Source of the DNA: Thermomicrobiales bacterium | GTDB lineage: Bacteria > Chloroflexota > Chloroflexia > Thermomicrobiales > CFX8 | Length of the DNA: 64,000 nucleotides | NCBI GenBank assembly: GCA_023954495.1 | Contig: JAMLIA010000008.1 | Location: 1-64,000 of the forward strand | Direction of reading: 5' to 3' | Position numbers and translations under genes: made by a program | Notes under the pieces: generated by a model | Seen by the model: only the letters and a program-made list of their open reading frames with translations | The model's database searches: none | Told to the model about the DNA's origin: nothing | Shown: positions 46,836-62,632 of the stretch, one piece after another | Position numbering within the stretch: position 1 is the stretch's first letter | Layout: each line of letters begins with the position of its first letter

Positions 46836-47011
46836 CACATACGCGGCCATCCAGTAGGTTCGCCGGGGCATTGTGGCTGCCGGTTGAGCGGGTCGCGGAG
46901 CCAAACGGGCGTATGCGATACGCCACATACGCGGCCATCCAGTAGGTTCGCCGGGGCATTGTGGCTGCCGGTTGTGCGGGTCGGGGAGCCAAACGGGCGT
47001 ATGCGATACGC
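46836..47011 (+). repeat. Tandem duplication, 88-bp unit
   Basis: Two units (46836-46923 and 46924-47011) begin CACATACGCGGCCATCCAGT and end in the repeat B palindrome. They differ at only a few positions, for example TTGAGCGGG versus TTGTGCGGG. Confidence 0.9.
46907..46924. repeat. Repeat family B palindrome, copy 1
   Basis: GGGCGTATGCGATACGCC ends the first 88-bp unit. It lacks the CCTACA extension of most copies because the second unit begins there. Confidence 0.8.
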
Positions 47012-47018
47012 CCCTACA
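46995..47018. repeat. Repeat family B palindrome, copy 2
   Basis: GGGCGTATGCGATACGCCC followed by CTACA, at the end of the second 88-bp unit, downstream of the sugar kinase gene. Confidence 0.85.
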
Positions 47019-47140: not shown

Positions 47141-47313
47141 TCGGCAGCCTGCCCCTTGTCCTGTCATCTCGAACCGCAGTGAGAGATCTCCCACCCGTTG
47201 GCTGAGTCAAACGCAGGAGAGATTTCTCGGCTGCGCGGGTGCCCTCTGGGCGTGAAATGACAGAGGACGGGGTAGGCTGTCGGCCCAGACTACTCGTCAT
47301 TGCTGGCAATGGC
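47141..47313 (+). repeat. Repeat family A, full non-coding element, copy 1
   Basis: The left arm TGTCATCTCGAACCGCAGTG continues AGAGATCTCCCACCCGTTGG (47162-47201). The partly complementary right arm (GGAGAGATTTCTCGGCTGCG ... GAAATGACA) ends near 47252. The flank runs to the small dyad CATTGCTGGCAATG (47299-47312). No open frame is inside. Confidence 0.85.
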
Positions 47314-47324
47314 GGCCCGCTGAA

Positions 47325-47499
47325 TTGGCAGCCTCCCTCTTGTCCTGTCATCTCGAACCGCAGTGAGAGATCTCCCACCCGTTGGACTGAGTCCAACGCA
47401 GGAGAGATTTCTCGGCTGCGCGGGTGCCCTCTGGGCGTGAAATGACAGAGGACGGGGTAGGCTGTCGGCCCAGACTACTCGTCATTGCTGGCAATGGCG
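47325..47499 (+). repeat. Repeat family A, full non-coding element, copy 2
   Basis: This copy is nearly identical to copy 1 at an offset of about 185 bases, with a few substitutions and a one-base indel. Its right flank again ends in TTGCTGGCAATGGCG. The two copies form a head-to-tail array. Confidence 0.85.
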
Positions 47500-48474: not shown

Positions 48475-48498
48475 GGGCGTATGCGATACGCCCCTACA
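48475..48498. repeat. Repeat family B palindrome, copy 3
   Basis: GGGCGTATGCGATACGCCC followed by CTACA lies 28 bases past the stop of the ABC substrate-binding protein gene and could act as its 3'-end hairpin. Confidence 0.85.
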
Positions 48499-51630: not shown

Positions 51631-51736
51631 GGGCGTATGCGATACGCCCCTGCATTTGCGTGGTTGTCTGCCGTCCTGCGGAACGTGACGACACGTGCGG
51701 TGCCTTGTCCAGTGTAGGGGCGTATCGCATACGCCC
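51631..51736. repeat. Repeat family B, inverted pair (copies 4 and 5)
   Basis: GGGCGTATGCGATACGCCC + CTGCA (51631-51654) faces TGTAGGGGCGTATCGCATAC + GCCC (51713-51736), separated by 58 bases. Each copy can form its own hairpin, or the two can pair as one long stem, as in bacterial interspersed mosaic elements. Confidence 0.85.
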
Positions 51737-51808
51737 GGCTGGCCACCACGGCCATGGCAATGGCAAACCGCCCCGACATTGCAGTCCCGATCGAAGAATT
51801 AACGCGCT

Positions 51809-58602: not shown

Positions 58603-58668
58603 GCGCTGCGGATGGTTGAGTGGATTGCCAGCAATGGCGAGCAGTTCGATCCGGCAGCCGCCCCCGCA

Positions 58669-58707
58669 TCCTGTCATTTCGAACCGCAGTGAGAAATCTC
58701 CCACCCG
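58669..58707 (+). repeat. Left inverted repeat of the GIY-YIG element (family A arm)
   Basis: This 39-base arm begins TCCTGTCATTTCGAACCGCA and ends in CTCCCACCCG. It is an exact inverse match to 59117-59155 and is closely related to the arms at 47162 and 47346. Confidence 0.95.
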
Positions 58708-58774
58708 TTGGCACCTGTCAAACTCTGCCGGGCACCTGGCCGATTCTGGCCGTAGCGTCTGGATACGCACCGCA

Positions 58775-59089
58775 ATGTCACCGCGACGGCAGCACTCGTA
58801 TTGGCTCTACATCCTGTCAAACGTCCTCGGTCGGTCAGGGACGCTCTACGTTGGCGTAACGAACAACCTCCAGCGTCGTGTCCGGGAGCACACACAATTG
58901 CGACCCGACACGTTCACGGGTCGCTATGGAGTCACCCACCTCGTTCACTGCGAGGAGTTTCGGTATATCAGTGACGCGATCGGCCGCGAGAAGCAGATAA
59001 AGGGCTGGGGGCGATCGCGCAAGCTCGATCTGATCGAAGCGGAGAACCCTGGCTGGGTGGACTTGAGCGCAGAGTGGTTTACGGAGTGA
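58775..59089 (+). CDS. GIY-YIG nuclease, single-domain (UPF0213/YhbQ-like)
   Basis: This protein of 104 residues is essentially one GIY-YIG endonuclease domain. The strands carrying the name motif are 'YWLYILSN' and 'GTLYVGVTNNLQRRVREH' (with the catalytic Arg). The metal-binding Glu is in 'AIGREKQIKGWGR'. 'RKLDLIEAENPGW' and 'DLSAEWF' are typical of the short bacterial GTLYVGVTN-type subfamily. It has no DNA-binding module of its own. It is flanked by perfect inverted repeats. Short GIY-YIG proteins are often annotated as excinuclease-like repair proteins; here the setting suggests a role in the spread of the element. Confidence 0.88.
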   Translation: MSPRRQHSYWLYILSNVLGRSGTLYVGVTNNLQRRVREHTQLRPDTFTGRYGVTHLVHCEEFRYISDAIGREKQIKGWGRSRKLDLIEAENPGWVDLSAEWFTE

Positions 59090-59116
59090 CGCCGTACTGC
59101 GTGTGACTGGTGCGAG

Positions 59117-59155
59117 CGGGTGGGAGATTTCTCACTGCGGTTCGAAATGACAGGA
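59117..59155 (-). repeat. Right inverted repeat of the GIY-YIG element (family A arm)
   Basis: This arm is the exact reverse complement of 58669-58707. It lies 27 bases after the nuclease stop codon. Confidence 0.95.
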
Positions 59156-59224
59156 CAAAAGGTTGCCTGTCGGCTCGGGATGCTCGCCATTGATGACGCA
59201 CCAACCCTCGCTCGCCCTCCCTCC

Positions 59225-62524: not shown

Positions 62525-62548
62525 GGGCGTATGCAATACGCCCCTACA
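62525..62548. repeat. Repeat family B palindrome, copy 6
   Basis: GGGCGTATGCAATACGCCC followed by CTACA. The centre carries GCA where other copies have GCG. Confidence 0.85.
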
Positions 62549-62593
62549 GAGATCCCTGTCAGATACACCGTCTTTGCAAATCCCGCAGACTGT

Positions 62594-62632
62594 GTACATA
62601 AATGGGCGTATTGCATACGCCCATTTATGTAC
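62594..62632. repeat. Extended palindrome containing repeat B, copy 7
   Basis: Perfect 18-base arms flank TGC. The inner part GGGCGTATTGCATACGCCC (62604-62622) is repeat B, and the palindrome extends outward by GTACATAAAT/ATTTATGTAC, which no other copy has. Confidence 0.85.

Follow-up and report, generated by a model that had tools for sequence, protein, structure and literature searches.

A GIY-YIG nuclease gene nested in matched CGTC-type REPs of a Thermomicrobiales genome: a probable REPtron-like cassette

The window analysed here is a stretch of 64,000 nucleotides at the start of a contig (here C8) from a Thermomicrobiales bacterium. It contains a small gene for a GIY-YIG nuclease enclosed by two inverted repeats (Table 1), with a metallo-beta-lactamase/rhodanese gene upstream of the element and a gene on the opposite strand downstream. 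As predicted originally from the DNA alone, this reading frame of 104 residues encodes a GIY-YIG nuclease (PF01541 domain, E 3e-13, 50.2 bits against a cut-off of 22.6) and is the sole gene between the arms. Its ATG start is backed by a paralogue on another contig (C20), which begins with MSPRQ. Residues Y12, Y25, G27, T29, R35, H39, E72 and N91 are conserved in alignments A1 and A2, and the AlphaFold model of the protein is confident (pLDDT 89.8), with UPF0213 BH0048 and Slx1 as the closest PDB structures. In the tree, proteins with a C-terminal NPxWxDL motif form one clade (support 99/94), inside which both the window protein and a Neisseria gonorrhoeae protein are found. The UPF0213/YhbQ proteins (PDB 1zg2, 1ywl) have the same domain and size and are the best solved relatives, but they belong to a separate clade and lack both the NPxWxDL motif and the flanking repeats described below. 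A group I intron homing endonuclease (TIGR01453) was ruled out for the window protein (13.5 bits against a cut-off of 56.05), and a search of phage records returned remote relatives only (35-36% identity).

Table 1. Features of the nuclease element and its repeat family in the window
Feature	Position	Strand	Basis
GIY-YIG nuclease gene, 104 aa, NPxWxDL clade (Ssn-type)	58775..59089	+	PF01541, alignments A1/A2, AlphaFold, tree
Left 39-bp arm, CGTC-type REP	58669..58707	+	Exact reverse complement of right arm
Right 39-bp arm, same REP, head-to-head to left	59117..59155	-	Exact reverse complement of left arm
22-nt hairpin core of left REP, tandem G.A mismatch in stem	58676..58697	+	Covariation
22-nt hairpin core of right REP	59127..59148	-	Covariation
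Full left arm, 95 nt, with GGCAGCC box, REP and one half of 48-nt linker	58629..58723	+	Inverted match to right arm
Full right arm, 95 nt	59101..59195	-	Inverted match to left arm
Unit common to window (C8) and C32 10552-11107	58652..59195		Flanks unrelated
Gene-less cluster, four arms of the same REP family in two head-to-head pairs	47144..47464		Similarity and profile

The 39-bp repeats are perfect reverse complements at the positions first proposed, and the suggestion that inverted similarity continues outside them is correct, since the full 95-nt arms share 81% inverted identity. Half of the 48-nt linker that separates tail-to-tail copies of the repeat elsewhere in the genome is kept at each end of the element. 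The repeat core consists of TGTC, a hairpin (ATTTC GA AC CGCA GT GA GAAAT) and the tail CTCCCACCCG, and in nearly all cores of the family TGTC precedes the stem as an unpaired CGTC/TGTC tag. Several stem variants changed on both sides were identified in the same genome (ATTTC/GAAAT, ATCTC/GAGAT, ATTCC/GGAAT and ATCTT/AAGAT). In 12 distinct cores, 96% of the cells are paired in the structure ....(((((..((....))..)))))., with 13 two-sided changes; none of 500 shuffles reached its covariation score, nor did any slid structure. By predicted folding energy as DNA, the window arms did no better than shuffles, and the window copy did not stand out; covariation was used instead as support for the hairpin.

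These features resemble the CGTC-type REPs surveyed previously (Di Nocera et al. 2013, PMC3733652) in the YGTC tag, a stem starting with AT, a loop of 4, paired units and genome-wide spread. The stem of that class has 8-9 bp starting with A-T and T-A and a loop of 4-5; the window REP has nine stem positions from AT, two of them G.A/A.G mismatched, and the loop CGCA. Its tail (CTCCCACCCG, containing CTCCCA) differs from the usual CCA, which is present in the REPs of other members of the NPxWxDL clade. Moreover, the usual predominance of head-to-head pairs is not seen in the window genome, where tail-to-tail pairs are as common (30 vs 25). Chloroflexota is absent from the phyla listed for CGTC REPs in that survey (PMC3733652).

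With the element as query, 138 blastn pieces of the same arm were detected genome-wide (3.36 Mb, 152 contigs), and the arms are thus not a product of chance. A profile made from the arms recovered approximately 101 arms in 39 clusters, the REP counts being based on searches and on selected stretches of the genome. The head-to-head pairs are mostly 10-19 nt apart, and the tail-to-tail pairs are separated by about 48 or 73 nt with a conserved linker between them. Together with the cluster at the other locus in the window, they bear out the earlier claim that gene-less copies of these arms exist elsewhere. The 48-nt linker bears a small hairpin of its own (GCCATTGNTGGCAATGGC), for example at 699-746 of locus L176 in this genome. 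Head-to-head pairs with much longer spacers were also observed, of 104 nt (L182 on contig C32, 1291-1516) and 96 nt (L213, 630-831). An origin of these pairs by internal deletion of a gene copy was rejected because they share no sequence with it, and they are possibly a longer gene-less type of element.

Five PF01541 loci could be found in this genome, two in long reading frames of UvrC size (688 and 611 codons) and three in small genes on C8, C32 and C20. All three small genes lie within head-to-head REP pairs, and the C20 copy has a different stem variant (ATCTTGAGCCGCAGCGAAAGAT), which is identical on its left and right. The C8 and C32 copies are homologous exactly from arm to arm and not beyond, in unrelated flanks, indicating that the gene and its arms were duplicated to an unrelated site. 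The two genes share 96.8% identity; that on C32 is interrupted by a single internal TGA.

Comparable units were found to be present or absent as blocks at orthologous sites on plasmids of two other genera. In the Sphingobium strains TomMM7A, TomTYG46 and TomMM15, a REP-gene-REP cassette of 383 nt separates fnrL from a response-regulator gene. The same site holds a single REP in TomTYG74 and TomTYG64, and no REP of that type in TomTYG72 and TomTYG65. In Shinella strains WSC3-e and HZN7 the gene lies between two REP pairs, and the whole block is absent from H4-D48 and S. sumterensis. Such patterns can be explained by gain or loss of the whole cassette, in either direction, with loss by deletion between the arms. 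A genus search around genome G157 yielded no clean empty site, as other genes there differ too. Along with the C32 duplicate, these cases support movement as a unit, in line with the original prediction of a mobile element. No target duplication was seen at the Sphingobium and Shinella empty sites or at C8/C32. An insertion sequence or MITE with a DDE transposase was ruled out, as the element contains no transposase and shows no target-site duplication.

The earlier statement that no transposase is present is true of the element itself; elsewhere in the genome, the C-terminal part of a RAYT-like Y1 transposase (containing LWQRSFYDHVIRTDADLDRIREYIANNPARW) lies on the minus strand at a contig end (L036, contig C36, 29264-29431). 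It is the only PF01797 match in the genome and falls below the Pfam cut-off only through truncation by the contig end. A second REP superfamily, of the GTAG type (GTAGGGGCGTAT-NGC-ATACGCCC), coexists with the CGTC REPs and occurs in the window at 46907-47014, 48475-48493, 51631-51737 and 62525-62623. The RAYT-like protein is a likely partner of these GTAG REPs, and the genome appears to host two parallel systems, one of RAYT and GTAG REPs and the other of GIY-YIG nuclease and CGTC REPs. In REPtrons and REPINs, RAYT genes are flanked by GTAG REPs (PMC2817692, PMC3116915). On the other hand, CGTC REPs were surveyed in 2013 as a class without a dedicated transposase; no RAYT flanked by CGTC units was found, and no enzyme was associated with these repeats (PMC3733652). 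In the literature collection searched, no paper links GIY-YIG genes to REPs.

The association extends far beyond this genome. A scan of alignment A1 of the NPxWxDL clade against 84,980 species genomes yielded 575 relatives, and 80 loci were retained from over a dozen phyla, including Bacteroidota, Alphaproteobacteria, Acidobacteriota, Chloroflexota, Planctomycetota, Verrucomicrobiota, Patescibacteria and Bacillota. Inward-facing REPs within 100 nt of these genes have a density of 4.0 per kb on the upstream side and 5.5 per kb on the downstream side, tens of times the background in the same loci (0.06-0.16 per kb at distances over 800 nt). These densities were obtained with a deliberately simple detector of CGTC-type palindromes, which overlooks REPs whose stems are longer or interrupted. 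In a sample of 151 Chloroflexota genomes, a REP was detected within 250 nt of 28 of 32 NPxWxDL genes vs 2 of 36 small YhbQ-like GIY-YIG genes (Fisher p 1e-12; counts de-duplicated), and REPs on both sides in 21/32 vs 0/36 (Fisher p 7e-10). Only 2 of 17 UvrC genes, identified by the length of the reading frame, had one. Genomes rich in two REP types made up 12/23 of the Chloroflexota genomes with an NPxWxDL gene and 10/128 of those without (p 2e-6), and several of these ten gene-less genomes are congeners of carriers.

REP type also follows the individual locus and the protein. Left and right REPs are more similar within a locus than between loci (0.60 vs 0.28; the maximum of 10,000 permutations was 0.37), and protein similarity correlates with REP similarity (Mantel rho 0.31, uncorrected for shared ancestry, with none of 2000 permutations as high). 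Arms of this kind thus flank GIY-YIG genes elsewhere, not only in the three small genes of this genome and in the Chloroflexota genes above but also in most of the 80 loci, and a check for relatives with the same gene at the same locus without the repeats left the proposal standing. The original interpretation was supported; it had missed the identity of the arms as CGTC-type REPs, the clade that includes Neisseria and the wide spread of the pairing.

The N. gonorrhoeae gene of the clade, which we take to be ssn, provides the closest known comparison. Ssn proteins are reportedly site-specific single-stranded nucleases of the GIY-YIG superfamily in Neisseria, whose target sequence is said to be present in hundreds of Neisseria copies and whose homologues are said to be specific for their own sequences. 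They have also been reported to modulate DNA uptake or recombination, and the reported Ssn biochemistry limits the novelty of the present findings. The gonococcal and window proteins share 46% identity, and in both systems the cognate repeat is found in many genomic copies as well as around the gene. The window gene differs in that a single matched head-to-head pair encloses it and that the unit is duplicated from arm to arm, whereas the gonococcal gene lies among at least 11 CGTCATTCCCGCGCAGGCGGGAAT-type (dRS3-type) repeats within about 0.75 kb and not in a tight single pair. The window repeat is a hairpin with G.A mismatches, whereas the stem of dRS3 is perfect. Neisseria CGTC-1 has been equated with dRS3 (Di Nocera et al. 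2013, PMC3733652).

Taken as a whole, the pattern is that of RAYT REPtrons: a single enzyme clade lies within a single type of repeat, the ends co-vary, and pairs lacking the gene also exist. The element shares with REPtrons an enzyme gene between inverted REPs, gene-less pairs as presumed passengers and one gene type per REP type; it differs in having a GIY-YIG nuclease and CGTC REPs, whereas RAYT is a Y1 HUH tyrosine transposase and its REPs are of the GTAG type. The window element is probably a REPtron-like mobile cassette, in which an Ssn-type nuclease recognises its own REP hairpins and gene-less REP pairs are passengers. The nuclease would recognise its own CGTC-type REP by the hairpin, most likely as exposed single-stranded DNA, and would cut there; repair or recombination might then use the REPs as ends and as homology. 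The REP-gene-REP cassette would thereby be copied or inserted at new places, and gene-less pairs could be moved in trans. Recognition of the REP by its nuclease is strongly supported and, if Ssn homologues are indeed specific for their own sequences, as reported, very likely for the window protein. Mobility of the cassette is also well supported and is considered likely, and the nuclease is somewhat favoured as the cause of the movement. We infer REP cleavage by the window protein, and cutting of a single strand is suggested by analogy with the reported activity of Ssn. The missing target-site duplication, the unremarkable folding energy of the window REP, possible loss by deletion between the arms, ten REP-rich genomes without the gene, and a RAYT-like gene in the window genome speak against this reading. 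Moreover, several other genomes have tandem copies only, for which ordinary recombination between repeats could be enough.

The same observations may be read in other ways. The gene could be a free-standing homing endonuclease that cuts a gene-less REP, with double-strand repair then copying the gene in via REP homology. The single REP of TomTYG74 and TomTYG64, exactly where other Sphingobium strains have REP-gene-REP, fits this possibility, as does the position of the gene in the window genome, where it replaces the 10-19 nt spacer of head-to-head pairs. A single REP is equally left by deletion between the arms, however, and no REP of the type exists at the site in TomTYG72 and TomTYG65 or at the Shinella empty sites. 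Homing into a REP would also not need the linker and the GGCAGCC box outside the REPs, which the C8/C32 duplicate includes, and this explanation is considered doubtful.

It is less probable still, and in our view unlikely, that the nuclease serves the host, with REPs as genomic cut sites that modulate DNA uptake or recombination, those at its own gene being regulatory and REPs spreading by other means. The Neisseria member of the clade, with its loose array of dRS3-type repeats, and the persistence of REPs in gene-less genomes would suit such a role. Yet a purely host-serving gene needs neither duplication from arm to arm nor gain and loss as a block, and the gene is repeatedly nested exactly in matched head-to-head REPs whose variant changes together on both sides. 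A last possibility, that RAYT or another transposase moves the REPs and the nuclease gene merely tends toward REP-rich intergenic DNA, could draw on the RAYT-like gene at the contig end. It appears highly improbable, as YhbQ-like genes of the same size in the same genomes rarely have REPs, REP type tracks the protein, the expected partners of RAYT are the separate GTAG-type REPs present in the window, and the 2013 survey found no RAYT flanked by CGTC units (PMC3733652).

Among these readings, the REPtron-like cassette has the widest implications. CGTC-type REPs are known from numerous bacterial phyla, with examples in Neisseria, Rickettsia and most alphaproteobacterial orders, and the NPxWxDL nuclease is the best candidate for the spread of this class, which has no known mover. 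A clade-specific nuclease partner, co-varying repeats, a duplicate and empty sites give one named enzyme to test for CGTC REPs. It may even be, although this is tentative and slightly less probable than the opposite, that throughout the bacteria CGTC-type REPs have their long-missing dedicated mobilisers in the NPxWxDL GIY-YIG nucleases. This would be a second and independent kind of REPtron, with a site-specific nuclease in place of a transposase to spread the palindromic repeat and its gene-less pairs. If true, the REP/REPIN and Ssn nuclease literatures would be joined, and Ssn targets would be abundant because they are the mobile ends of the enzyme itself.

Several further arrangements were observed in this survey. 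In three genomes (L080/L251 in G146, L095/L264 in G100 and L092/L276 in G073), NPxW GIY-YIG genes stand in tandem and REPs lie between them. In PLSDB, NZ_CP119142, NZ_CP119140 and NZ_AP026896 (N. gonorrhoeae and Aeromonas caviae 'plasmids' of 2.2 to 4.9 Mb) look like mislabelled chromosomes. In addition, on Planktothrix agardhii plasmid p1 (L311, 3001-3285), TGTCATTCTGAG-type REPs surround an NPxW GIY-YIG gene that lies between genes for an MmeI-type restriction enzyme and a DISARM helicase.
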